Part shown: positions 35,981 through 47,922 of the stretch, one piece after another | How the letters are laid out: every line of letters starts with the position of its first letter | Numbering within the stretch: the first letter of the stretch is position 1 | Assembly (NCBI RefSeq): GCF_014279795.1 | Contig: NZ_CP047945.1 | Location: forward strand, 2,314,572-2,378,571 | Length of the DNA stretch: 64,000 nt | Direction of reading: 5' to 3' | DNA from: Synechococcus sp. PROS-7-1 | GTDB lineage: Bacteria; Cyanobacteriota; Cyanobacteriia; PCC-6307; Cyanobiaceae | Notes under the pieces: generated by a model | What the model was told of the DNA's origin: nothing | The model's database searches: none | The model's input: the letters and a program-made list of their open reading frames with translations, nothing else | Position numbers and translations under genes: made by a program

Positions 35981-36291
35981 GTGTGCTCCTCCAAGCGGTT
36001 GTCGAGGTCTGCGACCTGGGCCCTCAGGCGATCAATGCGCTCTTGCAGGGATTCATCCGACGGATCCGTTGGCGGTTGGGTGCCCTGGGATTCAGACAGA
36101 TCGCTCTCTTGATGCAGCCGCTCGGCCTCAGCTCTCACCTCTTCCTGAAAGAGATCCCACTCCTGGCGAATGCGTTCGGGGGCATCCTGAACAGCAACCG
36201 CCATGCCAGCGGCAGCATCCGCTAACCCCTCTCCAATGCGGGCAACCAGGCGATTGATGGTCGCGCGCAGCAAGGCATCAGGTGGCGTCAT
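35977..36291 (-). CDS. Small coiled-coil protein coupled to the UbiB-like kinase
   Basis: 104 aa. Helical N-terminus (RATINRLVARIGEGLADAAA), an acidic middle and a C-terminal coiled coil (QERIDRLRAQVADLDNRLEE). No signal or membrane segment. ATGA overlap with the kinase gene suggests coupled translation. Resembles small proteins found next to ABC1 genes in cyanobacteria; function unknown. Confidence 0.65.
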   Translation of the reverse strand: MTPPDALLRATINRLVARIGEGLADAAAGMAVAVQDAPERIRQEWDLFQEEVRAEAERLHQESDLSESQGTQPPTDPSDESLQERIDRLRAQVADLDNRLEEHT

Positions 36292-36348
36292 GGCGATCTG
36301 CCGATGCGCAAACTGTGGCAGATCCCTCCCTCATCTGGTGAGGCTGAT

Positions 36349-36948
36349 CTACGGATTGGGTGGTGCCGTGGGCGGCGTTGAAAAGGCCTGGGGATCCTCG
36401 AACGGTTGAGGATTGACCGGCGGGGCGGGGCTTTCGAACAGACCTGGATCCTGCGCATCAATCACTGGATCAGGAAGCGGTGCAACGGCGGTTTCCGCAG
36501 GCGTCTCAGGCTCCAGCTCGGCTGCAGGGAGCTCAACAGCAGGGGCAGCCACTGGCGTTGCCGTCCACGCGGGCTCCGTCAAAACGGGCTCAACCAAAGC
36601 AGCCTGCTGCTCGGCGTCCCGACGTTCAGCCTCGGCAGCGATGGCCGCAGCCTGCTCCTTGGCCTGCTCGAGCTTGCGTTGTTCTGCTTCCACAGCTTCA
36701 AGCGCCGCCACATCGCCCATCAACGCTTTGTCCTCGCCGTAGCGACGTCTCAAAGCCTCGAGCGTCTCACCGGGGAAGCCCTGCTGGCGGAACGCTTCCT
36801 GCTGGGGCTGCTGCCAAGCGGCCCGCATCAGCACAACGCGCTGGGTGATGCCGTATCCCAACGCAAAACAAGCCCCGGCCACCAAGGGACCCACCCAGAA
36901 CCGTGGGCGTTTGGGGCGTTGCAGCTCAGATGCGGAGGGGGCCATCAC
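36349..36948 (-). CDS. Hypothetical membrane-anchored Ala/Pro/Glu-rich protein (199 aa)
   Basis: One N-terminal helix (VGPLVAGACFALGYGITQRVV) is followed by a coiled coil (residues about 45-115, repeated AEQRKLEQAKEQ-like heptads) and a Pro/Ala/Glu-rich tail with PAPPVNPQPFEDP. No known domain. Before insertion of the 9-kb element this gene would have lain directly downstream of argJ. Confidence 0.6.
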   Translation of the reverse strand: MMAPSASELQRPKRPRFWVGPLVAGACFALGYGITQRVVLMRAAWQQPQQEAFRQQGFPGETLEALRRRYGEDKALMGDVAALEAVEAEQRKLEQAKEQAAAIAAEAERRDAEQQAALVEPVLTEPAWTATPVAAPAVELPAAELEPETPAETAVAPLPDPVIDAQDPGLFESPAPPVNPQPFEDPQAFSTPPTAPPNP

Positions 36949-37037
36949 TGGAACTCAAAGGGTCAACAACACACCTGACGGTGGGCCCCATCCTCGCCCC
37001 TGAACGCCAGGAGCGCATCCAAGGCTGCAATCAGGTG

Positions 37038-37062
37038 GTGTAATCGGCGTTGATGCGCACGT
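37038..37062. repeat. Left attachment site (stranded argJ 3' end)
   Basis: 25 bp matching 46042-46066 with one mismatch (A at 37043, G at 46047). The 19-bp core TCGGCGTTGATGCGCACGT is identical. Read on the minus strand it codes for the end of ArgJ, followed by ACC ACC TGA. Confidence 0.88.
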
Positions 37063-37110
37063 GAGGCAAGATCCCAGTCTCTGACTGCATTGTTTGCCAT
37101 TACAATAGGT

Positions 37111-37128
37111 GTGAGCAAATTGTGAGCA
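37111..37128 (+). repeat. GTGAGCA pair, left arm site 1
   Basis: GTGAGCA-AATT-GTGAGCA, two heptamers with 11-bp period, about one helical turn. It begins 49 bases inside the left attachment repeat and overlaps the presumed integrase start. Candidate arm-type binding site. Confidence 0.6.
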
Positions 37129-38738
37129 TCGGTCGTCGCCTAGTCAAGGCAAGCGATCTGAGCGAATCGCGTGAGCAACCCGTGAGCAAAGCACTCGACA
37201 ACACGACCCCAAAACGGATCCTTGATCGCTGCGACTTACAAGGCGGCAGGGCAAACAACGCTTATGTCTTTAGAGACGGACAACGCGGCGGTCGCTGGTG
37301 CCTCTACTTCATCAACAAAGAAACAATGCAGCGCCATCGTTTTGTCTTGAAGCGGAGCAACGGTCGCCTCCCATCACCCACTCCAGACGGTCTAGATGAC
37401 GCCTTGGAACTTGCGCTGGAGAAGTTCATTGAACTGAAGGGCAAAACCGACCGAGGCGAAGCGGTACGGGCAATGACCATCGCTGAGATGGTCACTAGAT
37501 TCTTGGACAAAGAAGAGGGGCGGATCTCCAATCGCCCTCATGAGGGCATCACCGCTGCGCGTTACAGACTGCTCAGAAACCAGGCGAAGCACTTCCTGGA
37601 GTTCTGCTGCAGGAAGAACGGACCAGGGGCGAGCAAGCAGGTCCATCTCCTAAGGCGGAGTTTTCTGGAGACGTACCAGCGGTGGCGTGAAGACACGACA
37701 GGCGAGAACGACAAGCAAGGGAGAAAACTTCCTCGCCCGACAACACTCAATGCTGAGTTCTCAACGATCAGGAGGATGTTCAAGGAAGTCCCTTTACGTC
37801 ATGGATACATCACTGGCGACCAGATGCCAGAGATACCCAGAGCGAAGGTTCCGAAAGATAAGTCTCTGCGCCGATCATCACTCAGCGAAGAGGAATGGAT
37901 ACAACTCGAGAAAACATCGCGCCTCTACTGGACACAAGGAATCAGCAGGTATTCAGCGACTGGAGAACCGCTTGGGTACAAACTCATAACAAGAGGTCAA
38001 AACAAAGGAACGGAAAGCAATACGCCCATCACAAGAAACAACCTCTTTGGAGTCAACAAAGACAAGCACGCTCGCCAGTCAAAGAGGGCAACTCGACAAA
38101 AAGACCACCGCCTGATGCTGTACCTGGCGATGAGGATATCGATGGAAAGTGGCATCAGGATTGGTTCGCTTCGCCAAATGCGCTGGTCGCACATCTCAGC
38201 GAATAAAACACTTAGCAACGAAGATCAGAAAATCTGGTGCTTGATTGAAGTGCCAGCAGAAAATACAAAAACAGGACGACACTATGAACTAAGCGCGCCC
38301 TGCGCCAGACACTTAGAACACCTAAAGCGCCTGACGAAAGGCAAAGACGACGAACTTCTTTTCATCAATCTGAACAACAGGAAAGCATTATCAGATCGTA
38401 TCTGGCGCGATGGGTTACTGGAGATGCTCGTTGAAGCAGGTTTGGCGAATTGGGCAGAAGACGACAGCAACAACTGCAGGAAGGCAGAGGTGAAATCGGG
38501 AAAGTCACTGTCTTGGTATTCGTTCCGACACACTTACATCACCCTTGCGCTGGAACGAGGCGTTCCAATCGCCACCGTATGCTCCAACTGCGATACGAGC
38601 ATCCAGTACGTGCAGGAGCACTACTTCCACTATGACGCCAAGCGCGCCACTGAGGCACTCATCACAGGACGTAAACGAGTACCAAAAGGGGGGTTCAGCG
38701 CCGACTGGATGAAAGATCCCTATGTCAAAGAGGACTAG
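37122..38738 (+). CDS. Tyrosine recombinase/integrase
   Basis: 538 aa. The N-terminus is a possible arm-binding domain and a SAM-like core-binding region spans about 115-220. The catalytic domain has the first Arg in SGIRIGSLRQMRWSHI (about 350), LSWYSFRHTYITLALERG with the Arg-His pair (about 470), and the nucleophile Tyr probably in YVQEHYFHYD (about 502-506). An insertion of basic residues at about 270-325 is unusual. GTG starts are at 37122 or 37182 (in frame, SKALDNTTPKR). A TACAAT box at 37101-37106 just before the paired GTGAGCA motifs suggests integrase autoregulation. It is adjacent to the left attachment site. Confidence 0.88.
   Translation: MSIGRRLVKASDLSESREQPVSKALDNTTPKRILDRCDLQGGRANNAYVFRDGQRGGRWCLYFINKETMQRHRFVLKRSNGRLPSPTPDGLDDALELALEKFIELKGKTDRGEAVRAMTIAEMVTRFLDKEEGRISNRPHEGITAARYRLLRNQAKHFLEFCCRKNGPGASKQVHLLRRSFLETYQRWREDTTGENDKQGRKLPRPTTLNAEFSTIRRMFKEVPLRHGYITGDQMPEIPRAKVPKDKSLRRSSLSEEEWIQLEKTSRLYWTQGISRYSATGEPLGYKLITRGQNKGTESNTPITRNNLFGVNKDKHARQSKRATRQKDHRLMLYLAMRISMESGIRIGSLRQMRWSHISANKTLSNEDQKIWCLIEVPAENTKTGRHYELSAPCARHLEHLKRLTKGKDDELLFINLNNRKALSDRIWRDGLLEMLVEAGLANWAEDDSNNCRKAEVKSGKSLSWYSFRHTYITLALERGVPIATVCSNCDTSIQYVQEHYFHYDAKRATEALITGRKRVPKGGFSADWMKDPYVKED
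37171..37188 (+). repeat. GTGAGCA pair, left arm site 2
   Basis: GTGAGCA-ACCC-GTGAGCA, same 7+4+7 layout and orientation as the site at 37111. It lies inside the first codons of the integrase as called, or just upstream if translation starts at the GTG at 37182. Confidence 0.6.
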
Positions 38739-38965
38739 GGAGAGACGAGATCCAGAAGGTTTCCATCACCATCAACGATGCGGAACCGCTTTCCTGTCGC
38801 CGCTGCGCGCGCCTTGGCAGTCCTGTAGGCATCGCCTTCGTTGTGCTTCTCCTGGTAGCGATGCCATTTGCCGAACTGATCCTGGTATTGGAGGACGAAC
38901 TTCATCTGAGCGAGTGCTGGAGCGGTGAGGAGCAGGAGCAATAGGGGGAGTAGCAGGAACCTCAT
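38735..38965 (-). CDS. Small exported protein (76 aa)
   Basis: MRFLLLPLLLLLLTAPALAQ is a clear signal peptide, starting at 38965. The mature part is about 56 residues and ends GKRFRIVDGDGNLLDLVSP. This closing pattern resembles that of the neighbouring 64-aa protein (GRRTRVLGEDGEVLHEVDP), so the two may share ancestry. Convergent with the integrase (4-base overlap). Function unknown. Confidence 0.6.
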   Translation of the reverse strand: MRFLLLPLLLLLLTAPALAQMKFVLQYQDQFGKWHRYQEKHNEGDAYRTAKARAAATGKRFRIVDGDGNLLDLVSP

Positions 38966-38975
38966 CAGTCGCCCG

Positions 38976-39170
38976 TCAAGGTCTTGACTTTGATGGATCC
39001 ACTTCATGGAGGACTTCTCCGTCCTCGCCCAGGACTCGGGTCCTCCTACCAATCATCCTGGCGATCCTGTTCGCTTCTTTTGGGGCGACCTCTAACGACG
39101 GCGCTGAGGCGTGGAGGTGCCATTCTATGAAGGGATTCAGTTCTTGGACGCGGAACTGGTCTCCTGCCAT
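38976..39170 (-). CDS. Small protein (64 aa) related to the neighbouring 76-aa protein
   Basis: MAGDQFRVQELNPFIEWHLH at the start, then EANRIARMIGRRTRVLGEDGEVLHEVDP. No signal peptide. It sits 3 bases after the 60-aa gene and 10 bases before the 76-aa gene, in one apparent operon with the serine recombinase. Confidence 0.55.
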   Translation of the reverse strand: MAGDQFRVQELNPFIEWHLHASAPSLEVAPKEANRIARMIGRRTRVLGEDGEVLHEVDPSKSRP

Positions 39171-39173
39171 CCC

Positions 39174-39356
39174 TCACTCGCCCTCCAAAACTTTCTCAAC
39201 CACTGCGTCCTTCACCCTGTCCTGAAAGGTCCTGCCGTCTTGCTCAGGGGCAATCACATTCGCAGTTGATCTCAACAGGTCTGCGGTGATCTGCCTTACC
39301 TCTGGGTTGGTGAAGAGAAGGAACCCCAGACCGACTCCTATGAGGACCTTCAGCAC
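39174..39356 (-). CDS. Tiny membrane protein (60 aa)
   Basis: One N-terminal hydrophobic helix (MLKVLIGVGLGFLLF) is followed by a charged amphipathic region (ITADLLRSTANVI, then DRVKDAVVEKVLEGE). Overlaps the 3' end of the serine recombinase by 7 bases. Function unknown; small one-helix proteins of this kind are common in cyanobacterial accessory DNA. Confidence 0.55.
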   Translation of the reverse strand: MLKVLIGVGLGFLLFTNPEVRQITADLLRSTANVIAPEQDGRTFQDRVKDAVVEKVLEGE

Positions 39357-39949
39357 GACATCGCCTCCTGTTCGGCAATGATCCGACGGATCGTTGAGAG
39401 CGCCAACCCTGTCTGTTCCCTAATGGAGCGATAGGAGCAACCCTCTTCTCTTAAGCGCAGCACCAGGCGCTCCTTTGCCTGATTGGTTTTGGGGCGTCCG
39501 CCAATGCTCTGACCAGTTGCCTTCCTGTGCTCAATGCTCTCCATCACTCGGTCTCTGGTCATCTCCCGCTCTACTTCATTCAGACCAGTCAGCAGACCAA
39601 TGAGGACAGGTGCCATCTTTCCCATTGCCTTGGTATTTACCAGTCCATCCAGGGTGCGGACATGAATGCCCTTCTCCTGAAGGTCATGAAGACGATTGAT
39701 CACCTCCCGTTGCGTCCTCCCAAGTCTTGAGAGGGCAGTGATGACCAGTTCGTCGCCTTCCACCACCGCATTGAGTGCTGCCTGTAGTTGATGGCGGTCT
39801 TTCTCTGGCGTGCGAGTGCTGACGATCTCTTGGAAAACCACAGCGCACCCTGCATCCTTCAGCGACTTGACCTGGACTTCCAGACCCGCTGCCTGCTTGG
39901 TGTCGCCACCGCCGCTGGTTCTTGCGTAACCAATGCTTCGGGAAGTCAC
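39350..39949 (-). CDS. Serine recombinase (resolvase/invertase family)
   Basis: 199 aa. The catalytic domain begins SIGYARTSGGGDTKQAAGLEVQ, with the nucleophile Ser probably the one in YARTSGG. VVEGDELVITALSRLGRTQREV and MTRDRVMESIEHRKATG are family motifs. The C-terminal HTH is SYRSIREQTGLALSTIRRII. It could resolve replicated copies of the element or invert DNA. It heads the minus-strand operon with three tiny genes. Upstream lie TGGAACA repeats. Confidence 0.88.
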   Translation of the reverse strand: MTSRSIGYARTSGGGDTKQAAGLEVQVKSLKDAGCAVVFQEIVSTRTPEKDRHQLQAALNAVVEGDELVITALSRLGRTQREVINRLHDLQEKGIHVRTLDGLVNTKAMGKMAPVLIGLLTGLNEVEREMTRDRVMESIEHRKATGQSIGGRPKTNQAKERLVLRLREEGCSYRSIREQTGLALSTIRRIIAEQEAMSC

Positions 39950-40168
39950 TGTTCCAGAAAGGGTTGTTACAGAAAGAATAACAACAGAACACCATTATTG
40001 GAACACTCAGATCTCAGTTGCAGCGATTTGGGTTTGATGTTCTCGTTTCCGATCGGTTGTTGGAACACCCGAGTCCATGCGTCTTCTGCAATGACCGTAG
40101 AAATCCCCCATTCAGGGGAGGCACACTCGCACTGATGGATCCAAAATCAGGACAGGTAGAAGACCTCC
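39950..40168. promoter_or_regulatory. Divergent intergenic region with TGGAACA and other repeats
   Basis: Between the recombinase and the hsdM remnant. TGGAACA occurs on the minus strand at 39950-39956 and on the plus strand at 39999-40005 and 40061-40067. TGTTCCAGAAAG (39950-39961) and TGTTACAGAAAG (39965-39976) form a near-perfect 15-bp-spaced tandem repeat. GTTGTTA and TAACAAC (39964-39986) form an inverted repeat. It may be a recombination site or operator for the adjacent serine recombinase; inference only. Confidence 0.4.
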
Positions 40169-40525
40169 GTGACGGACTCGGCGAATAACCCTCTTGCTCA
40201 AGGCGCAGACCAAGAACCTGCTGGTCTGGATGACTTGCTGGCATCTGTCATCTCAGGAGAAGACGAGCAACCCAAAAAGCGAGGGCGAAAGAAGAAGGTC
40301 GCTGCTGCTGAACCCGAACCGACCTTCCAGATCGGTCAGAAACTGACCTTCTCCCAACTGGAGTCGTTCCTCTGGAAGAGCGCAGACATCCTGCGGGGAA
40401 GCATGGATGCGTCCGAGTTCAAGGACTACATCTTCGGGATGCTGTTCGTGAAGCGCCTGTCCGATGCCTTTGAGGAGGCACGAGAAGGAGTCATCGCCTG
40501 GTGGATGGTGATGGGCGCTTATTAG
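40169..40525 (+). pseudogene. Truncated type I restriction-modification methylase (HsdM N-terminal fragment)
   Basis: GTG start; 118 aa. After a basic linker ([13 protein letters not shown]), [40 protein letters not shown] is the HsdM N-terminal helical domain. The frame ends at residue 118 in an unrelated [12 protein letters not shown]; the catalytic methylase domain (DPPY-type motif), HsdS and HsdR are absent. It is either a decayed remnant or a free N-domain. Confidence 0.75.
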
Positions 40526-40538
40526 ATTTGATAGATAG

Positions 40539-40703
40539 TTAGTATTGAGTTTGAAGAATTTCTTTGTTGATAAATCGCCTAAGCAAAGTCCGACTGCGCA
40601 ATTTCCATTTGCAATCGCTGGGAGTTGCCCCAATCACAAATGAATAGTTGCCAGAGGGATAGCGACCTTTGATCTTGAGGTGACCATTCTTGAGAACAGT
40701 CAC
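40539..40703 (-). CDS. Possible small protein or decayed gene (54 aa from GTG)
   Basis: On the minus strand a protein-like frame is open from about 40790 to the TAA at 40539. It includes FLSEVVNTLRPYTIDGEVTV, NGHLKIKGRYPSGNY and SFVIGATPSDCKWKLRSRTL. There is no ATG; the first usable start is a GTG at 40703. The 5' part overlaps the end of the 73-aa gene in another frame. It could be the distal part of a gene disrupted by a frameshift. Confidence 0.3.
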   Translation of the reverse strand: MTVLKNGHLKIKGRYPSGNYSFVIGATPSDCKWKLRSRTLLRRFINKEILQTQY

Positions 40704-40774
40704 CTCTCCATCAATGGTGTATGGGCGAAGGGTATTGACTACTTCCGAGAGGAACCCTTTGCCATGCTTGAAGA

Positions 40775-40996
40775 TTACTCTTCTACACTGAAATAGGAGT
40801 ATTCCAACAGATCGGTATCATTATCAACACGACACTGCTGTAAGTATTTTACGGGATCTGTGACATCTGAGGGGAGGTGGATCTCGCGATATTCCGTCAC
40901 TTTGGTCCATTGGATATCACCCCCTCCCCTAGGAGTGAATGGCACATAATGAGTAAAATCGTAACTCCAGAGTTTGTAAGCAGTTTGCGCGTCCAT
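40775..40996 (-). CDS. Small hypothetical protein (73 aa)
   Basis: MDAQTAYKLWSYDFTHYVPF at the start, followed by an acidic Tyr-rich end (DTDLLEYSYFSVEE). No signal peptide or known domain. A strong promoter (TTGACG and TATAAT) lies about 135 bases upstream. Confidence 0.5.
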   Translation of the reverse strand: MDAQTAYKLWSYDFTHYVPFTPRGGGDIQWTKVTEYREIHLPSDVTDPVKYLQQCRVDNDTDLLEYSYFSVEE

Positions 40997-41394
40997 AAAT
41001 GCCTCCGTGGGCGTAGATTTGATATTGCTCTAAACCTGAGCAGGTATAGGTATTTCTAGCGGTTTTTGCCGAACAACTGAAGACTTACTCCCTAAGAACT
41101 AAGTCGCTGGGGCGTCTTTCGCTTGTGGGGTTATTATAGGGCATCCCCCCCTGACCCGTCAACCCCTTCTGGGCAAATTAGTTGAGACACAAGTAGTCAC
41201 AAGGGTTCCGATTGGGCACCCCAGATGGCGACTGAGATCCCACCGTCTCAAATCCAGAAAAGGCAAGACTCATTCCAGGGCAGTGCTTTCTGCTCTTTTA
41301 CCTAACCCTTACTGATAATCAAAGGCAATGCTTACTTGTCCAAGCATCTCAAGATCTCCCGCTAAACCCTGATAACAACGAGAGAGGAGATCTG
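40997..41394. other. Intergenic stretch inside the element
   Basis: About 400 bases with no credible gene on either strand. It contains the minus-strand promoter at 41133-41162 and C- and G-rich runs near 41145. Confidence 0.5.
41133..41162 (-). promoter_or_regulatory. Sigma-70-type promoter for the 73-aa gene
   Basis: On the minus strand TTGACG (41162-41157), an 18-base spacer, then TATAAT (41138-41133). Expected start near 41126, giving a leader of about 130 bases. Confidence 0.6.
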
Positions 41395-41640
41395 TCAGTC
41401 AATATCATGGTAATTGCCCTGGGCATCGGTATAACCTCTGAACCTGCCTCGCTTTGATGGGTTGTAGGTCCTGGAATACTCCACGGGGTATCGCTTTCCA
41501 TAGGCGTTGGTGAAGGTCCTAGCGTCCCTGCTGACACCAAGACCAACCCTTTGAGTGGTGGAGGCACCAGATTCCCTTGACGCCCCGTAGAACCGCCGTA
41601 GAAGCGTTTGGAGGTCATAAAGGACACCTTGCAAAACAAA
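41395..41640 (-). pseudogene. Frameshifted partial copy of the 134-aa gene at 42962-43366
   Basis: Bases 41404-41572 are identical to 42971-43139, and the similarity continues to 41603. At 41573 the copy has TCCC where the intact gene has GCCCC, a substitution plus a one-base loss that shifts the frame in the middle. The C-terminal frame still encodes RGFRG-like TYNPSKRGRFRGYTDAQG ending HDID, and the other frame still encodes MTSKRFYGGSTGRQG. The N-terminal 60 codons of the parent are missing. Confidence 0.82.
41404..41603. repeat. 200-bp direct repeat, left copy
   Basis: Left copy of a recent duplication; 169 bases are perfectly identical to the right copy at 42971-43139, and the whole repeat differs by one substitution and one deletion. 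Confidence 0.92.
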
Positions 41641-41677
41641 GGGACGACTATACAATTAATCTGCAACCTATCCAACG

Positions 41678-42112
41678 ATGAATTCAGGAATTAATTTTAT
41701 CGCGTTAGCAACAGCAGGTATGCTCCTTGCTTCCTGTAACGCACATGACTCCAAGACCAATGGCAGTACGTCAAATCCTGACAGTACAAATCCTCCGAAC
41801 GTCGTAAAAGTGCTGGATAGAGTCGTCTGTTCTAATAATATTACTTCATGCCCTCAGGAAGTTATCAATAAAATCTGGGGGATATGCCTCAAGAATGGTT
41901 TTTCGGAGGCAATGCCTAACCGCGAGGTGTTGTCATCTAGAGACATACAAGATCTAGTTTCAGAATCAGAAACTATTACCAAAACACGCCCAACCGACTA
42001 CCAGACAACTGATGAGAACGGAATCGTTAAAGATGTACAGGGTGAAGAGCAATACGACGAAGAAGTTACCACCAAGGGGGTATGCATTGGTTCAGAATAT
42101 ATTCTCAAATAG
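41678..42112 (+). CDS. Small lipoprotein (144 aa)
   Basis: A signal peptide with lipobox LLASC puts the lipidated Cys at about residue 19, followed by a Ser/Thr/Asn-rich linker. The mature part has Cys pairs (VVCSNNITSC, then WGICLKNG and KGVCIGS), suggesting a disulfide-bonded domain. No family recognised. It is flanked by the two copies of the 200-bp repeat, with the divergent secreted protein beside it. It may be an exclusion or surface protein, but this is not shown by sequence. Confidence 0.65.
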   Translation: MNSGINFIALATAGMLLASCNAHDSKTNGSTSNPDSTNPPNVVKVLDRVVCSNNITSCPQEVINKIWGICLKNGFSEAMPNREVLSSRDIQDLVSESETITKTRPTDYQTTDENGIVKDVQGEEQYDEEVTTKGVCIGSEYILK

Positions 42113-42181
42113 GTTTGGCAATCTTTAAATCATATAATTGATATCGCCCAATGAGTCGAGTCCTAACCGACAACCATCCAC

Positions 42182-42946
42182 CTACAAACCATTGAATTGT
42201 TCAGACTTTTTAAATTTTGAGATGACGTAGTGAGTAACAGTGAGTAACAAATTTCCGGTATATGAGAATTTTTCTCTATCGGTAGACAACCAATAAAGGG
42301 GTCTGAGAACAAATTGCCGTCTACTCGGAATTGTCCAGTCGCAATTAACTATGGTCAAGCGTTCCTTGTAATTGGAAGCATAATCTCCAGTGTATATATT
42401 AAAGAGTTTACCAGTCTTATCCACAAGTTTATTCCCATCATGGGCGGGATACATCATCCCCGTCTCTCGTTTTATGCTAGTGTCATAATAAGTTCCAGCA
42501 GGATTCCCGCCACTCTCACGAGCGCAATTAATAGAGCAATCGATGTCGACTGGATTCGGGTACTTGACACCCGATTTTCGATCCAAACATTCGTAATAGT
42601 CCTGTTGCTTAGTTCCATAAAATCTCGGATTAAGACTAGGATTATTGATATTAGTCCAGGCATCCCATTTCGCAGTTTTCAAAACACAGACAATGTCTGG
42701 AGTGGTAAAATTAATATTTCGATTGTAGACGAGATTGCGGAGGGTCTTATGCATATTTATCTGATCTGGATCACCGCTATAGGGAATAATGTAGAAGGAC
42801 CTATTACCGAGAATCAAGTTACTCTTTGAATACGAAAGAGACTGATTAGAAGGGCATACATATTCCGCCTTTACCTGAGAAACAAACGATCCGACTGCGA
42901 CCATGCAAAAAAACGTGCGTACAGTTCTAGAATTGGGCATATGCAC
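42182..42946 (-). CDS. Exported Cys/Tyr-rich protein (254 aa)
   Basis: The signal peptide ends near SQVKA. The mature chain is Tyr/Asn-rich with eight or so Cys and the repeated-looking YPNP and RFYGTKQQDYYEC segments. No known domain. The DNA is strongly AT-rich compared with the host genes, indicating recent transfer. It lies between the two 200-bp repeat copies, tail to tail with the lipoprotein gene. Confidence 0.6.
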   Translation of the reverse strand: MHMPNSRTVRTFFCMVAVGSFVSQVKAEYVCPSNQSLSYSKSNLILGNRSFYIIPYSGDPDQINMHKTLRNLVYNRNINFTTPDIVCVLKTAKWDAWTNINNPSLNPRFYGTKQQDYYECLDRKSGVKYPNPVDIDCSINCARESGGNPAGTYYDTSIKRETGMMYPAHDGNKLVDKTGKLFNIYTGDYASNYKERLTIVNCDWTIPSRRQFVLRPLYWLSTDREKFSYTGNLLLTVTHYVISKFKKSEQFNGL

Positions 42947-42961
42947 ATCGAGTGGACTTTA

Positions 42962-43366
42962 CTAGTCTAAATCATGGTAATTGCCCTGGGCATCGGTATA
43001 ACCTCTGAACCTGCCTCGCTTTGATGGGTTGTAGGTCCTGGAATACTCCACGGGGTATCGCTTTCCATAGGCGTTGGTGAAGGTCCTAGCGTCCCTGCTG
43101 ACACCAAGACCAACCCTTTGAGTGGTGGAGGCACCAGATGCCCCTTGACGCCCCGTAGAACCGCCGTAGAACCTCCTACTGGTCATGAACGAGACATCAT
43201 CAAACTTCAGACCACGTTGCTTCCTGATGCTTGTTGCCTTGGTCTTTGCCTGATCAAATCCTCTTGCTGTTCCAAGGACTGCTCGTGTCTTCTTGTTGAA
43301 GATCACGAACTCAGCATTTGGGTTGTAGTCCTCACATAGATCCAGGAACTGTTTAAAGGTAATCAT
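42962..43366 (-). CDS. Unknown basic protein (134 aa), parent of the frameshifted copy
   Basis: MITFKQFLDLCEDYNPNAEF at the N-terminus resembles short N-terminal tags seen in cyanophage-encoded small proteins (from memory). The middle is Lys/Arg-rich and the C-terminus has RVGLGVSRDARTFTNAYG and YNPSKRGRFRGYTDAQG, then NYHDLD. Overlaps the 49-aa gene by 4 bases (ATGA). Last gene of a five-gene operon. Confidence 0.6.
   Translation of the reverse strand: MITFKQFLDLCEDYNPNAEFVIFNKKTRAVLGTARGFDQAKTKATSIRKQRGLKFDDVSFMTSRRFYGGSTGRQGASGASTTQRVGLGVSRDARTFTNAYGKRYPVEYSRTYNPSKRGRFRGYTDAQGNYHDLD
42971..43171. repeat. 201-bp direct repeat, right copy
   Basis: Right copy, lying within the intact 134-aa gene. 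The two copies flank the lipoprotein and secreted-protein genes in the same orientation and could recombine to delete them. Confidence 0.92.
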
Positions 43367-43512
43367 AGTGGCAACTTCTTATTCGCTTTTGCTAACTTCT
43401 CATGTGATGCAGTGACTGCATCTAGATAACCAAAGAAGTCGTAAAAATCAGTTTTCGTGAGGATCACTTTGATCCTGTCTTCAATTGATTTAGGGATGTT
43501 CCTTTGTGCCAT
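43363..43512 (-). CDS. Very small protein (49 aa) in the overlapping operon
   Basis: Starts MAQRNIPKSIEDRIKVILTK and ends HEKLAKANKKLPL. Its ATG (43512) lies within the end of the 107-aa gene (23-base overlap) and its TGA overlaps the ATG of the 134-aa gene. The perfect spacing and helical, protein-like composition support a real gene. No family recognised. Confidence 0.6.
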   Translation of the reverse strand: MAQRNIPKSIEDRIKVILTKTDFYDFFGYLDAVTASHEKLAKANKKLPL

Positions 43513-43813
43513 TTCTGTTCTTCCTGTCGTAGCATTCCATAACCTTTTTCACTGCTTTACGCTTTCTGCTTTCAAATACCCTTATTCCTTCTTGCGGATT
43601 GTGAGGATTGGGGTAATACCTTGACCGACCATGCTTTCTTGGGTCAATCGCTCGTGGATTGATCTGATCCCAATTTTGCAACTCAGGGTCATCCTCTAGA
43701 TCTTGAATGTAAGAACCATCTTTGATCTTGTCCCTAAGCGTTTTGATGATCCCACGATCCTCTAAGTATGCCTTGTACAAGGTCTTTATGAAATCACTGT
43801 ATGTGTAACTCAT
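43490..43813 (-). CDS. Unknown small protein (107 aa)
   Basis: MSYTYSDFIKTLYKAYLEDRG, then an acidic segment and a basic C-terminus (SRYYPNPHNPQEGIRVFESR). Cytoplasmic and without a recognisable domain. ATGA overlap with the upstream 76-aa gene. Confidence 0.6.
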   Translation of the reverse strand: MSYTYSDFIKTLYKAYLEDRGIIKTLRDKIKDGSYIQDLEDDPELQNWDQINPRAIDPRKHGRSRYYPNPHNPQEGIRVFESRKRKAVKKVMECYDRKNRNGTKEHP

Positions 43814-44040
43814 TTGCTTACTCTTCCAATTCCAAGAACGTGGATTAGGTTCTGCTCGTAATCTTTGTACTCAACCTGGAACAGTTCCATCTTGAGTTTT
43901 GCGATCTCATCGCAGATGTAGTTGTAAGTGTCTCTGTTGTCAGGTGTTGGTCTGCCAGCAGTGTCTCTATCAACCCTATCTCTCTTCTTGATTAGATGAT
44001 TGATTAACTGTTCCTTCTTCTCACGTTCTGCATTATTCAT
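43810..44040 (-). CDS. Unknown small coiled-coil protein (76 aa)
   Basis: Highly charged and helical (NAEREKKEQLINHLIKKRDR, then YICDEIAKLKMELFQVEYKD). No known domain; perhaps a DNA- or protein-binding accessory factor. Five bases after the stop of the operon's first gene. Confidence 0.55.
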   Translation of the reverse strand: MNNAEREKKEQLINHLIKKRDRVDRDTAGRPTPDNRDTYNYICDEIAKLKMELFQVEYKDYEQNLIHVLGIGRVSK

Positions 44041-44045
44041 TTTTT

Positions 44046-44276
44046 CTAGATCTTGTGTTTTTGTTGTGGGAAGATAAGTTCATCAACGATCTGAAGCATT
44101 CTTTTATAAGAAGCAGACCTTCCAAGACCAAAGTGCTTCATGACCCGTTGCTCTTTTCGCATTAGGTCTTGTTCATCTTCCTTGAATGACAGATGAACCT
44201 TGTGGGACATCTTGGGCACAAAGGTGTGCTCATTCTTTTCACATTTAATTTGATCATAAAGTGTGGAATTTCTCAT
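44046..44276 (-). CDS. Unknown small protein, first gene of the element's minus operon (76 aa)
   Basis: Start at 44276 (MRNSTLYDQIKCEKNEHTF) is preceded by a GAAGGAAAG ribosome-binding run; an upstream ATG at 44339 is less likely. C-terminal QRVMKHFGLGRSASYKRMLQIVDELI could be a helix-turn-helix or ribbon-helix-helix-like segment, so a regulatory role is possible. Transcribed from the promoter at 44434-44462. Confidence 0.55.
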   Translation of the reverse strand: MRNSTLYDQIKCEKNEHTFVPKMSHKVHLSFKEDEQDLMRKEQRVMKHFGLGRSASYKRMLQIVDELIFPQQKHKI

Positions 44277-44433
44277 TTCAGTCTTTCCTTCAGTCCTGTG
44301 TTGAGTGCCTAAGGGCACATGCTCTGAACTATTTATCAAACTTTTTTAATGCTACGCGGAACCCTTGAGCGCCCCAGAAGAACTCTAAATACCCTAAAGA
44401 ACTACAAGTTGTGTTTCATCGGTCTTACCGATA

Positions 44434-44462
44434 TTTATACACGATTTTCTCTAGTTTGTCAA
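44434..44462 (-). promoter_or_regulatory. Near-consensus promoter of the small-protein operon
   Basis: Minus strand TTGACA (44462-44457), 17-base spacer, TATAAA (44439-44434). Expected transcription start about 44427 and a leader of about 150 bases before the first ATG. One of the best sigma-70 matches seen in the window. Confidence 0.75.
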
Positions 44463-44514
44463 GAACTGTGTGAAATAGGTGATACCTAACATCCACAGTC
44501 CCTTGGGAAAGTGC

Positions 44515-44544
44515 TTGACAACTAGCAGAACTTAGTGTTACAAT
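44515..44544 (+). promoter_or_regulatory. Promoter of the zinc-ribbon gene
   Basis: TTGACA (44515-44520), 18-base spacer, TACAAT (44539-44544). Start expected about 44551, 26 bases before the ATG at 44577. Divergent from the minus promoter, about 53 bases apart. Confidence 0.7.
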
Positions 44545-44576
44545 ATATCAACTAGAAGTTAGAAATACTGCTCTGT

Positions 44577-45074
44577 ATGACTTATCACGTTTCCCATACA
44601 CCTCAGCAACTGCAAGGGATCTACAAGTTGGATGAGTTGCTTTTGACCCAGGCACCATTCAGTCTCGGGATCACCCCAAGAGTGAATACCCCATATCGCT
44701 GCATCTGCCCTTATTGTGATGGTCACCACAGTGGCAAAGCGAAAGACAGAACACGAAAGGTAACTGGCAGCATCTTTAAGCATCAGAACGGCGAGGGTTA
44801 CTGCTTCAAGTGCATTGCTTGCAAAGAGTTCCGCAATTCCATGTACCTGCTCGCTCTTGAGAACTTCCCGAACGGTGAAGCGGTTGCTGATTGGTATGCG
44901 ACCTATCGCTGGGAGAGGTTGGACCGTGCTGCTGGGCATGGATGGTCCTGCCCACTCCCTAAGAAGGTCGCTAAGTCGTTCGCAGAGGCACGGGCGAATA
45001 AGTCCTTGTCCAAGAAGGCGGGTGCTTCTGCGAAGGTTGCGGCAGAGATGTTCCTGCCCCCTCGTAATGCTTGA
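44577..45074 (+). CDS. Zinc-ribbon protein with primase-like zinc-finger (165 aa)
   Basis: CICPYCDGHHSG and, about 35 residues later, CFKCIACKEF form a four-Cys (plus His) zinc site. It resembles the CHC2-type ribbon at the N-terminus of DnaG-family primases and phage helicase-primases. No TOPRIM or helicase domain follows; the C-terminus is Lys/Ala-rich (KKVAKSFAEARANKSLSKK). It may be a primer-initiation or DNA-recognition factor for element replication. That role is inferred only from the motif and the element context. Confidence 0.6.
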   Translation: MTYHVSHTPQQLQGIYKLDELLLTQAPFSLGITPRVNTPYRCICPYCDGHHSGKAKDRTRKVTGSIFKHQNGEGYCFKCIACKEFRNSMYLLALENFPNGEAVADWYATYRWERLDRAAGHGWSCPLPKKVAKSFAEARANKSLSKKAGASAKVAAEMFLPPRNA

Positions 45075-45090
45075 GGTTTCACAAACCCAT

Positions 45091-45104
45091 TGACCACGTG
45101 GTCA
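45091..45104. promoter_or_regulatory. 14-bp perfect palindrome
   Basis: TGACCACGTGGTCA is a perfect palindrome 17 bases after the zinc-ribbon gene. No T run follows, so it is more likely a dimeric protein-binding site than a terminator. It lies between convergent genes, where an operator would be unexpected. Confidence 0.4.
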
Positions 45105-45186
45105 TCAGAGTGTCTTGTTGAGTAAAGAATGAAGGGGAGTTATTACCTGTCTGTCTCCTGCTCCCCGAACCAGGGTTTTACGAGGG

Positions 45187-45450
45187 TCAGAGGTCCTCGA
45201 AGAACTTATATAGAGAGAACCTTGGCGTCTCATCAAAAGGAAGAGACCGCACAAACTGATTCAGATTCCAAATCACATACTTCTGATAGTTCCTTCCAGG
45301 GGATGAGCAGAGGGTAAAGGATCTCTGCTCACCCCCATAGGAAGCAACGCAGACAGGATGCCCTGTCTTCTTACGCATACGGAAGGTTCCTTCATCAGCA
45401 AGGTCCCGCAGATAATCCTTAATTCTGCGATTGACGGTTGCTGTATTCAT
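45187..45450 (-). CDS. Unknown small protein (87 aa)
   Basis: MNTATVNRRIKDYLRDLADEG suggests a helical N-terminus; the remainder is Phe/Arg-rich (RSFTLCSSPGRNYQKYVIWN). No domain recognised. Convergent with the zinc-ribbon gene. Confidence 0.5.
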   Translation of the reverse strand: MNTATVNRRIKDYLRDLADEGTFRMRKKTGHPVCVASYGGEQRSFTLCSSPGRNYQKYVIWNLNQFVRSLPFDETPRFSLYKFFEDL

Positions 45451-45571
45451 TTTTCAGGACTCAACTCAAAGTAGTAGATACCTTCTGAGAAACCCAGTCT
45501 TTAATCTGAGAGAACCCAGACGACAGAGCAAGCACTCAGAAGGGTCTGCATTAGTGCGTCACCAGCACTCG

Positions 45572-45817
45572 TCAAGCAACATCATCCTCACCTTCTTCAA
45601 CAACTTCAGCATCGAAGTAGTTTTCAAGATCAGCAAAACCATTGTCGTAATCCAATTCGTCCGTATCAATCTTGAAATCAGCAAGACAGTTTTCACGGAT
45701 GTATTGGATCAAATCTTGCTCATCAAGACCAGCAGGCGCTTGGACATTCATACGGGCAGGAAGAAGAACAAATACCTGCCAAGACACAGAGTAAGTAGTG
45801 AGTTCGTTGTTAGTCAT
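45572..45817 (-). CDS. Small acidic protein (81 aa)
   Basis: MTNNELTTYSVSWQVFVLLP at 45817, then LDEQDLIQYIRENCLADFKI and a strongly acidic C-terminus (DADEVVEEGEDD-like). An earlier in-frame ATG at 45871 would add 18 residues. The acidity suggests a DNA-mimic or binding protein, but nothing proves it. Last gene before the right end of the element. Confidence 0.5.
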   Translation of the reverse strand: MTNNELTTYSVSWQVFVLLPARMNVQAPAGLDEQDLIQYIRENCLADFKIDTDELDYDNGFADLENYFDAEVVEEGEDDVA

Positions 45818-45970
45818 TTTTAATCGTTGGAGAAAGGAACATTTAGACATTGGTTGTTCTCGCCAGAGCAATGATTTCAGTGGCGTTTATTCAATTTGAG
45901 CGTTGAACAAGGACGCAAATCACTTGACTCAACAGAATCAATATATGTCGATTTACGTTGCGTGTCTAGC

Positions 45971-45988
45971 GTGAGCATGGTGTGAGCA
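45971..45988 (+). repeat. GTGAGCA pair, right arm site
   Basis: GTGAGCA-TGGT-GTGAGCA, the same 7+4+7 layout and strand, ending 53 bases inside the right attachment repeat. The match of this arrangement at both ends of the element supports a role in recombination. Confidence 0.6.
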
Positions 45989-46034
45989 GCATCAAAAGAC
46001 CTCTCACATTGACTGCAACAACTAAACTTATTGC

Positions 46035-47327
46035 CTATGTTGTGTAGTCGGCGTTGATGCGCACGTATTGGTCGGACAAGTCACATCCCCAGGCCAGGCC
46101 CTCTCCGGCCCCGGAACCAACGACAAGACGAATCTGGACCGAATCATCCACTAAGTAGCGGCCATAGGCACGCTCACTGAGATACGCCGAAGCAGCTGAG
46201 CGATCAAACACCAGGGGTTGGCCCGCTGCCATCAGTTGATAGGGCCCGATCCAGAGGGCAACGGCGTCAGCCTCAAAGGCCACTCCGGAACGACCGGCCG
46301 CCGCCACGATGCGGCCCCAGTTGGGGTCACGACCATGCACGGCCGTCTTCACCAGCGAGGAGCCACAGATCGTGCGCGCCATCTGCAGGGCTCCGGCCTC
46401 AGTGGAGGCTCCCTCCACCTGAACCTCGATCAGACAGGTGGCTCCTTCCCCATCGCGGGCGATCGCACGAGCGAGATGTTGTGCCACCAGAGTGAGTCCT
46501 TCCTCCAGCTTGTCCTCACAAAACTCCGGCAGGGACTCACCGGCGCAGAAGGCCAGCACGGTGTCGTTCGTGCTGGTGTCGCCATCGACGGTGATGGCGT
46601 TGAAAGAGCGTTCTACCGCCCGCTGCACCATGGCTTTCCACGTCAGAGGGGGGACGGCCACATCGCAACTGATGGTGCCGAGCATGGTGGCCATATCGGG
46701 GTGGATCATTCCTGATCCTTTGGCCATGCCACCAATGCGCACAGTGCGGCCAGCGAGTTCGGCCTCAAAGGCGATCTGCTTCTCCACCAGATCCGTGGTG
46801 AGGATCGCCTGCGCTGCGGCGGATCCCCCCTCCGGGCTCAGCCCGTCCACCAGAGGATCCAGGCCTGCCAACAGCACCTCCATCGGGATCGGCACACCGA
46901 TCACCCCCGTGGAACAGATCAACACCGCCTCCCCATCCACACCCAGGCGATCCGCCAGCGCCTGGGTGGCGCGCTGGCTGTCGATCAAACCGCGATCGCC
47001 TGTGCAGGCGTTGGCCTGACCGGAATTGATCAGCACCGCCCGCGCCTGACCGCCCCCGTCCTGCAGTCGTTCAGCGCAGAGATCCACACAGGCGGCACGC
47101 ACCACCGACCGGGTGAATGCCCCTGCGCACACCGCACCCTCGGGGGCCAGCACCAAGGCCAGATCAGGCTTGGCAGAAGCCTTCAGGCCAGCGGTGATCC
47201 CTGAGGCCTGAAATCCTGTCGGCGCGGTCACCCCCCCCGCCACCGGCAACCAGTCGGACGAAACCCTGCGAGCGGCGTCAACCACGGCTGTACGCGAGAC
47301 ACTGAAAGCATCCTGCCGCCGCACCAT
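46035..47327 (-). CDS. argJ: Bifunctional glutamate N-acetyltransferase / amino-acid acetyltransferase ArgJ
   Basis: Transfers acetyl from acetylornithine to glutamate in arginine biosynthesis. The self-cleavage site is visible in KGSGMIHPDMATML (cleavage before Thr). APEGAVCAGAFTRSVVRAAC, GQANACTG and NWGRIVAAAGRSG are family motifs. The last nine codons are supplied by the integrated element, yet still read VRINADYTT. The start is uncertain: ATG at 47327 overlaps the divergent coaE start at 47326, and an earlier ATG at 47375 would lie inside coaE. Confidence 0.93.
   Translation of the reverse strand: MVRRQDAFSVSRTAVVDAARRVSSDWLPVAGGVTAPTGFQASGITAGLKASAKPDLALVLAPEGAVCAGAFTRSVVRAACVDLCAERLQDGGGQARAVLINSGQANACTGDRGLIDSQRATQALADRLGVDGEAVLICSTGVIGVPIPMEVLLAGLDPLVDGLSPEGGSAAAQAILTTDLVEKQIAFEAELAGRTVRIGGMAKGSGMIHPDMATMLGTISCDVAVPPLTWKAMVQRAVERSFNAITVDGDTSTNDTVLAFCAGESLPEFCEDKLEEGLTLVAQHLARAIARDGEGATCLIEVQVEGASTEAGALQMARTICGSSLVKTAVHGRDPNWGRIVAAAGRSGVAFEADAVALWIGPYQLMAAGQPLVFDRSAASAYLSERAYGRYLVDDSVQIRLVVGSGAGEGLAWGCDLSDQYVRINADYTT
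46042..46066. repeat. Right attachment site (within present argJ)
   Basis: Right copy of the 25-bp direct repeat; the core is at 46048-46066. It lies inside the present argJ gene, and the codons after the core (TAC ACA ACA TAG) come from the element. Confidence 0.88.
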
Positions 47328-47922
47328 GCCAAGCCAACGCCGGATCGGTCTCACCGGCGGCATCGCATCGGGCAAAAGCAGCGTGGGGCGCTGGTTGAGC
47401 GACCACGGACTCCCGGTTCTGGATGCCGATCGCTATGCCCGGGACGCCCTCGCCCCGGGCAGTGCAGGCTGCCAAGCCGTGCTGGCGCGGTACGGACCCG
47501 CTGTAGCTGCCCGTGGGGCACGAGCCGACGTGGTGGAGCTAAATCGATCGGCCCTGGCCGACATCGTGTTCGCCGATGCGGTGGAGCGCCGATGGCTCGA
47601 ACGGCTGGTCCACCCCCTCGTCCGGCAGGCCTTTGACACCGCTCTCGGCGAGCTGGAGCTCACACCAGCGGTCGTGCTGATGGTTCCTCTGCTTTATGAA
47701 TCCGGCCTGGAGAGCCTGTGCACGGAAGTGTGGGTTGTGCGCTGCAGCAAGGAGCAACAACAGCAACGGCTGATTCAGCGCAACAGGCTCTCGGCTCAGC
47801 AGGCCGATCAACGCATCGAGGCGCAATGGCCGCTGGCACGCAAATGCCTGCTGGCGGATCAGATCATCGACAACAGCGGCGAACCGGATGCGTGGCAAGC
47901 CCAGGTTTTGAGCTTGCTGTGA
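47326..47922 (+). CDS. coaE: Dephospho-CoA kinase
   Basis: Last step of CoA biosynthesis. P-loop GLTGGIASGKSSVGRWL at residues 8-24; VLDADRYARDAL; MVPLLYESGLESLC and VWVVRCSKEQQQQRL are family motifs. 198 aa. Divergent from argJ with overlapping start codons (sharing the CAT/ATG at 47325-47328), so each promoter must lie inside the other gene. Confidence 0.93.
   Translation: MPSQRRIGLTGGIASGKSSVGRWLSDHGLPVLDADRYARDALAPGSAGCQAVLARYGPAVAARGARADVVELNRSALADIVFADAVERRWLERLVHPLVRQAFDTALGELELTPAVVLMVPLLYESGLESLCTEVWVVRCSKEQQQQRLIQRNRLSAQQADQRIEAQWPLARKCLLADQIIDNSGEPDAWQAQVLSLL

Follow-up and report, generated by a model that had tools for sequence, protein, structure and literature searches.

Five small open reading frames (P1 to P5) lie on the minus strand of the window, the whole 64,000-nucleotide stretch of DNA that was analysed, which is part of the closed 2.57-Mb genome of Synechococcus sp. 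PROS-7-1. All five are open at the positions and with the lengths given in the initial annotation.

44276-44046, minus strand: P1, 76 aa, probable regulator with a ribbon-helix-helix-like pattern, as judged by eye
44040-43810, minus strand: P2, 76 aa, no family assigned
43813-43490, minus strand: P3, 107 aa, no family assigned
43512-43363, minus strand: P4, 49 aa, found with P3 in five elements and near P1 in two further loci
43366-42962, minus strand: P5, 134 aa, element-family protein with a conserved C-terminal tail

Overlaps occur at three of the four junctions, and measure 4 nt (ATGA) at P2/P3 and P4/P5, and 23 nt at P3/P4. P1 and P2 do not overlap and are separated by 5 nt. The overlaps, which the initial annotation had assigned to the entire series, are thus found at the last three junctions but not at the first.

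Genes P1-P2-P3-P4-P5, in the same order and on the same strand, were identified by tblastn and profile searches in four other genomes (L017, L018, L019 and L020). P5 is broken by frameshifts or stops in L019 and L020. The recurrence of the five-gene order supports even P4, which is present in all five elements and may be considered a real gene, as suggested despite its length of 49 residues. Ratios of pN/pS are 0.45-0.89 for P1 (3 pairs), 0.33-0.78 for P2, 0.32-0.60 for P3 and 0.31-0.71 for P4 (10 pairs each), and 0.23 and 0.44 for P5 (2 pairs). All measured pairs, in many of which pS is near saturation, have values below 1. Both the order, for which a search of related elements had been proposed, and the reading frames are therefore conserved. 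P3 is found in 5 of 300 family genomes, its own genome counted, and in none of the 243 other genomes of a phylum-wide sample (n=244).

The operon is carried by a 9.0-kb element located at the 3' end of argJ. The following features delimit the element and flank the operon.

37035-37062, no strand: attL, left attachment repeat, 28 nt, 93% like the right copy
37122-38738, plus strand: tyrosine recombinase (integrase), 538 aa, PF00589, E 1.2e-7
39350-39949, minus strand: small serine recombinase, 199 aa, PF00239, E 3.8e-27
44577-45074, plus strand: P6, 165 aa, predicted stand-alone zinc domain of the T4-type phage primase (gp61), divergent from P1
45187-45450, minus strand: P7, 87 aa, with relatives in L017 (internal stop), L024 and others
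46039-46066, no strand: attR, right attachment repeat, 28-nt direct repeat within the argJ 3' end

The tyrosine integrase adjoins the left repeat, and the right copy is located within the last codons of argJ. An empty site is found in genome G246, in which the sequences flanking the element (35534-37062, 93% identical, and 46039-47895, 98% identical) are contiguous and share exactly the 28 nt (L081, 1502-1529). Of 22 argJ loci that were compared, at least nine show the empty-site signature (L081, L082, L085, L086 and L088-L092). The contiguity of the flanks in relatives indicates that 9.0 kb have been inserted at the argJ 3' end. With an integrase next to one repeat, direct repeats at both ends and an empty site in a relative, the region qualifies as an integrative mobile element. 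In L083 (genome G231), a sequence resembling part of the serine recombinase gene is found beside the same 28-nt argJ site, and argJ may be a repeated insertion site. No tRNA genes are present in the window, and no RNA families were found by Rfam in the interval 35500-47500.

A partial second copy of the C-terminal half of P5 (41395-41655, similar to 42962-43195) is found at a distance of 1.57 kb; 180 nt are 98% identical, and the copy is probably a duplication remnant. The interval 40169-40525 encodes a truncated HsdM protein, limited to the N-terminal domain, which is the sole HsdM_N match of the genome. A 105-aa protein (38735-39052) has a signal-like N-terminus, as judged by eye, and its C-terminal part is matched in 14 of 26 relative regions, some of the matches being on the strand opposite to P5 or P6. 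Genes at 41678-42112 and 42182-42946 feature lipoprotein- or signal-like starts (by eye), have no relative in the compared elements and are likely cargo. The element proteins that were scanned include no recognisable terminase, capsid protein or full primase. Relatives of P1, P3 and P5 were not found in IMG/VR viral contigs, and no near match of the element was found among 50,697 phage records.

In searches against the phage syn9, the P6-family profile matched the T4 gp61-like DNA primase subunit (E 9e-22; next match E 2.4), the match being restricted to residues 16-109 of the syn9 protein. P6 of one relative matched 519 phage records, some of which are duplicates, with a best identity of about 46%; 461 of these records are named Synechococcus phage, Cyanophage or Prochlorococcus phage. 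P6 of another relative matched 196 phage records. In the PDB, P6 matches nothing below E 0.01 except two sequences of DNA primase; the PDB code 8dvf occurs in the consulted text of a paper on the T4 primosome (PMC10359460). The P6 of the window is diverged and, when searched alone, matched the phage primase at E 0.06 and the PHROG DNA primase at E 0.0024; it scores E 5e-39 in the family profile, in which it is itself included. No other P6 match was found in the host genome at E up to 1, which argues that P6 is not the host DnaG.

Proteins of the P6 family contain the zinc ribbon with four cysteines and, behind it, the region that binds the helicase; the catalytic TOPRIM part is missing, as is the second helicase-binding motif. 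According to the consulted part of the T4 primosome paper, gp61 uses its zinc domain both to recognise the site of priming and to bind gp41, the latter via the Ile74-Lys97 region (PMC10359460). Residues 6-92 of the T4 gp61 chain align with the P6 protein that was used in the 519-record search. As the alignment extends up to residue 92, P6 seems to retain most of the docking part, without the catalytic part. P6 thus shares with T4-type gp61 the N-terminal zinc domain, differs from it in having no TOPRIM domain, and is best described, on the basis of its sequence, as a gp61 zinc domain deprived of the catalytic core.

P1-P5 proteins found no family match in the libraries searched, in agreement with the initial annotation, in which none had been recognised. 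A possible role of P1 as a DNA-binding regulator, also suggested there, is made plausible by the strand-helix-helix pattern of the P1 family, which is ribbon-helix-helix-like by eye, but finds no significant library match. The best Pfam hit had an E value of 0.021 among 18 members, none of which was significant; the best PHROG hit (E 0.0064) is a family of unknown function. The P1 profile matched unrelated PDB proteins at E 0.13 and 0.51, and the CcdA antitoxin at E 0.77. The match to AlpA (E 0.11) fell short of the cut-off, and no other scanned window protein matched AlpA. A palindrome, ATCGGTAAGACCGAT, is located just after the -10 box in the window, but shuffled sequences give nearly as many palindromes of that length (0.7). 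Iteron-like repeats were sought in 16 regions, and the best repeat surpassed all 15 shuffles in three of them (L061, L063 and L023), not in the window. P1 probably regulates, as a ribbon-helix-helix protein, the control region that it shares with the divergent P6 gene.

A defence or toxin-antitoxin identity of P1-P5 was considered and rejected, as nothing significant was found in PADLOC, NCBIfam, Pfam and PHROGs. P4 matched the TacA1 antitoxin model at E 0.058 only. PADLOC detected no defence system protein among the ten proteins scanned, and CARF models matched the serine recombinase at E values of at least 0.009. Structure prediction, proposed at the outset for each protein, was carried out for P3 and P5 with two-sequence inputs. 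The P3 model is unusable (pLDDT 49.6), but a moderate model (pLDDT 68.4) was obtained for P5, which is predicted to fold as a small beta-beta-alpha-beta domain. With this model, Foldseek gave best E values of 0.0099 against viral models and 0.66 against the PDB. P5 relatives were not found in phages and plasmids.

The N-terminus of several P3 and P5 proteins follows the pattern x-F/Y-x-x-F/Y-L, which recalls the internal proteins of T4. The P5 genes of L066 and L075 have a start at MKSYKQFISEARE and MKTFSQYRREAQEA, respectively, and resemble in this syn9 gp184 (MKKFSAFLSEAER). Two of 212 syn9 ORFs fit a simple pattern for a capsid-targeting-type N-terminus, as compared to 1.8 in shuffled sequences; one of the two, gp184, looks real. 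The N-terminus of P5 in L066 and L075 is perhaps a particle-targeting signal.

P1 and P5 are found well beyond the window-type operon. The P1 profile has matches in 54, and the P5 profile in 22, of 400 family genomes. We compared 27 regions, i.e., the window and 26 relatives chosen via P3 or P5 matches. P1 and P6 occur together in 16 of these regions and are arranged back to back in all 16, at a distance of 234-565 nt in 15 regions and of about 2 kb in L059. P5 belongs to a window-type operon in five regions, is located behind P6, in the same orientation, in ten (L021, L022, L058, L059, L060, L064, L065, L069, L070 and L074), and follows P1 without P2-P4 in four (L061, L062, L063 and L075). 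In the rest, P5 is located elsewhere or is fragmentary; the gene is broken in several elements. P2-P3-P4 mark the window-type variant, and P2 is also present in L023. The integrases of the relatives do not all belong to one family. P1 and P5 belong to the shared module of the element family, not to its cargo.

Thirty-six further P1 loci, of about 3 kb each, were inspected. In 14 of them, P6 is found at a distance of up to about 1.5 kb from P1, and in 22 it is absent from this range; P4 is present in two, and P2, P3 and P5 in none. Given the scarcity of P6 and the absence of P2, P3 and P5, distant P1 relatives may belong to another kind of element. The P4-like frames are found in L138 (E 9e-10) and L144 (E 2e-16), with no P3 or P5 within the 3 kb examined. 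Additional features were noted in single elements or groups of elements. L062 (genome G134) contains two P1/P6 pairs about 5.5 kb apart, and five P1 matches are present in that genome. The relative in L017, which adjoins a tRNA-Ser gene, encodes a true AlpA regulator (13994-14209, PF05930, E 8.5e-22) besides P1 and P6. Hairpins featuring G-N-A triloops and changing stems are found between P6 and P1 (14 in 16 regions, 0.52 expected). They occur in L021, L022, L058, L060, L065, L069 and L070, are arranged in tandem in four elements, and are absent from the window; they might act as an RNA switch, an origin or a terminator.

In the window, the region separating P1 and P6 contains the following signals.

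44457-44462, minus strand: TTGACA, -35 box of the promoter toward P1
44432-44439, minus strand: TATAAATA, predicted late-promoter consensus doubling as the -10 box of a sigma-70-type promoter
44330-44337, minus strand: late-promoter-like GATAAATA upstream of P1
44515-44544, plus strand: sigma-70-type promoter toward P6, TTGACA-18-TACAAT

The near-consensus promoter of the initial annotation is present, with TTGACA at 44462-44457, a 17-nt spacer and TATAAA at 44439-44434. As reported in the consulted part of PMC2984593, the late promoter of T4-like cyanophages is NATAAATA, and a combined early and late signal is found at S-PM2 middle genes. The -10 box TATAAATA of the window is likewise predicted to be an early and a late promoter in one. 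Late motifs are located at -59 and -161 of P1 in the window, and at -29 to -33 in most relatives.

Promoters were analysed in 16 control regions, i.e., 15 P1 regions and L023, where P5 replaces P1. A TTGACA promoter directed toward P1 is found in 13 of the 16 (0.26 expected from mononucleotide shuffles). The promoter is located 186 nt upstream of P1 in the window and 312-443 nt upstream in the 12 relatives bearing it, and would thus specify a long leader. A strict TTGACA promoter toward P6 is present in two regions (0.32 expected), and a looser pattern, counted with no control, occurs within 70 nt of P6 in six. These counts support an early P6 promoter only in part. Twelve of the 16 regions have the hexamer TAAATA at no more than 80 nt from P1; 1.12 were expected from dinucleotide shuffles (maximum of 6 in 1000). 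The position is -29 to -33 in ten of these regions, -59 in the window and -56 in L017. Over the entire control regions, TAAATA is repeated 30 times in the direction of P1 (7.1 expected) and 7 times in that of P6 (5.0 expected).

The motif had been spotted by eye in the 16 regions, and was then tested at the other 57 P1 matches, analysed as a first group of 39 loci and a second of 18. Of the 39, 36 were retrieved after the motif had been noticed, and three, in L059, L062 and L019, had been available earlier without being used. Most shuffle controls preserve base composition alone. A/CTAAATA is found in the sense orientation within 200 nt upstream of P1 in 46 of the 57 loci, and in antisense orientation in 11 (7.4 expected). 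Figures are 33 sense and 7 antisense for the first 39 loci (4.9 expected from mononucleotide shuffles), and 13 sense and 4 antisense for the remaining 18 (2.5 expected). When the range -120 to -15 is considered, the motif is present in 8 of the closest ten of the 39 loci (0.99 expected), in 6 of the middle twelve (1.91 expected), and in 4 of the weakest seventeen (2.29 expected), the latter showing little excess. The motif lies farther from P1 in distant P1 relatives. Redundancy was reduced by retaining one locus per P1 cluster among 15 + 39 loci. At 70% identity, the motif is found in 27 of 31 loci (8 in antisense; 4.0 expected), and at 50% identity in 13 of 14 (4 in antisense). In an unbiased count of 7-mers, ATAAATA is the commonest, being found in sense orientation in 32 of 54 loci and in antisense orientation in 9.

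The motif is not restricted to P1. Outside the window-type operon, it is found at the start of 10 of 17 P5 frames (0.70 expected), and its distribution depends on gene order. Nine of the ten P5 genes located behind P6 carry the motif, as opposed to none of the four located behind P1; of the three others, L068 has it, L023 and L066 do not. This is the distribution expected if P5 needs a late promoter of its own only where that of P1 is not available. P6 is preceded by the motif in one of 19 genes (1.77 expected). In the phage syn9, used as a positive control, TAAATA is located at -40 to -22 in 20 of 183 genes (2.8 expected) and is mostly preceded by A or C, like the motif of the elements. P1, and P5 when located behind P6, are thus preceded by a putative cyanophage late-promoter motif, and P6 is not.

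On these grounds, we favour the view that the operon is the late module of a small integrative element wired to T4-like cyanophage infection, which would most likely be a phage satellite. A satellite is proposed because two phage-derived signals, the late motif and the gp61 domain, are combined with mobility. The initial annotation had regarded the operon as typical of phage-satellite or defence cargo. The bounded 9-kb integrative element, the late-promoter motifs and the phage-primase-derived neighbour agree with the mobile setting that it proposed, but P1 and P5, being a shared module, do not fit the term cargo. P6 would be expressed early upon infection, with transcription probably due to the host polymerase, and could dock on the phage gp41 helicase through the helicase-binding region of gp61, with the effect of either recruiting the replisome of the phage to the element or preventing phage priming. 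The phage late sigma factor (gp55) and the clamp would then switch on P1-P5 at the TATAAATA boxes. P1 would feed back on the divergent control region, and P2-P5 would act late, when particles assemble. More tentatively, the family may consist of widespread, undescribed satellites of T4-like cyanophages, in which a stolen, catalytically empty primase domain docks on the helicase early, the P1 operon is controlled by late promoters of the helper, which would time the element to particle assembly, and late proteins, P5 above all, steer helper particles to the element.

The same wiring might serve an anti-phage island, in which the element senses a T4-like cyanophage and sabotages it by a primase decoy made early and by P1-P5 made late, perhaps abortively, without hitchhiking in particles. 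P6 has the form expected of a dominant-negative protein, as it retains from gp61 the part that binds DNA and the helicase, without the catalytic one, and no relatives of the element were found in the IMG/VR viral contigs scanned. Such an island nevertheless seems rather unlikely to us, since the element is mobile, the module is associated with different integrases, an operon expressed late would come into play when much damage has already been done, and the PADLOC scan of ten proteins was negative. We consider it more doubtful still that TAAATA is unrelated to phages, being either the binding site of P1 itself, involved in autoregulation, or a host promoter box. The motif is indeed strongest beside P1, and shows no excess when the other ORFs near P1 are pooled: it is found at 6 of 200, three of them P5, and 4.8 were expected. 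None of 52 host genes of the window has the motif in the last 60 nt, a control of little power, as 0.3 were expected at their G+C content. The motif, however, agrees with the late promoter of the literature, and with the syn9 control, in its sequence, its spacing and the base before it; it is strand-specific, also precedes P5 where P5 follows P6, and is maintained where P1 identity drops to about 20-30%.

An ordinary integrative element with decaying genes, in which the operon would be cargo of no current function, could account for the truncated hsdM gene, the partial P5 duplicate and the broken P5 genes of relatives. We regard this as improbable, as the five frames of the window are intact, gene order and promoters are conserved, and pN/pS is below 1 in all measured pairs.

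Tycheposons are reportedly the subject of a 2023 paper by Hackl, and VEIMEs of a 2022 paper by Eppley; some tycheposons are described as viral satellites. The comparisons that follow refer to the consulted parts of the papers cited. Tycheposons of Prochlorococcus, like the element of the window, are cargo-carrying picocyanobacterial integrative elements, but sit at tRNA genes (PMC10872708, PMC10187409), whereas the window element sits at argJ. The picocyanobacterial element of Flamholz et al. (PMC10187409) shares with it the host type, a divergent tyrosine integrase and variable cargo. A small serine recombinase near the integrase, frequent but not constant in the Flamholz element (PMC10187409), is also present (39350-39949). 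The relative L023 features both a serine recombinase (E 1e-4 to that of the window) and a tRNA-Phe gene. In the Flamholz element, in contrast, the integrase is located upstream of tRNA-Phe or tRNA-Cys, and the consulted text makes no mention of the P1/P6/P5 module, the gp61 domain or a late promoter (PMC10187409).

PICMI satellites of Vibrionaceae (PMC10803314) are similarly small integrated elements that carry an integrase and a primase-related gene, insert at the end of a protein gene and depend on a virulent phage, a dependence that is inferred for the window element. PICMIs feature AlpA and a DUF3987/DUF5906-type primase, and are inserted at fis (PMC10803314). In contrast, the window element is inserted at argJ and features the gp61 zinc domain alone, a ribbon-helix-helix-like P1 and late-promoter motifs; Pfam found no DUF3987/DUF5906-type primase in the window proteins scanned. 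PICMIs, tycheposons and the Flamholz element are the nearest kinds, as far as the consulted texts go, and the window element departs from each of them in at least one defining feature. A screen of titles and abstracts turned up neither T4-like cyanophage satellites nor a gp61 zinc domain standing alone in an element of this type, which is not a claim of absence from print. An isolated gp61 zinc domain combined with phage late promoters was not met in the parts of the literature examined.

T4-like cyanophages rank among the major viruses of picocyanobacteria in the ocean, and little is known about the intracellular elements that exploit or resist them. The module formed by P1, P5, P6 and the TAAATA box is a sequence handle on a family with a definite kind of helper, and leads to a sharp prediction, namely that the primase mimic would be expressed early, and the operon late.
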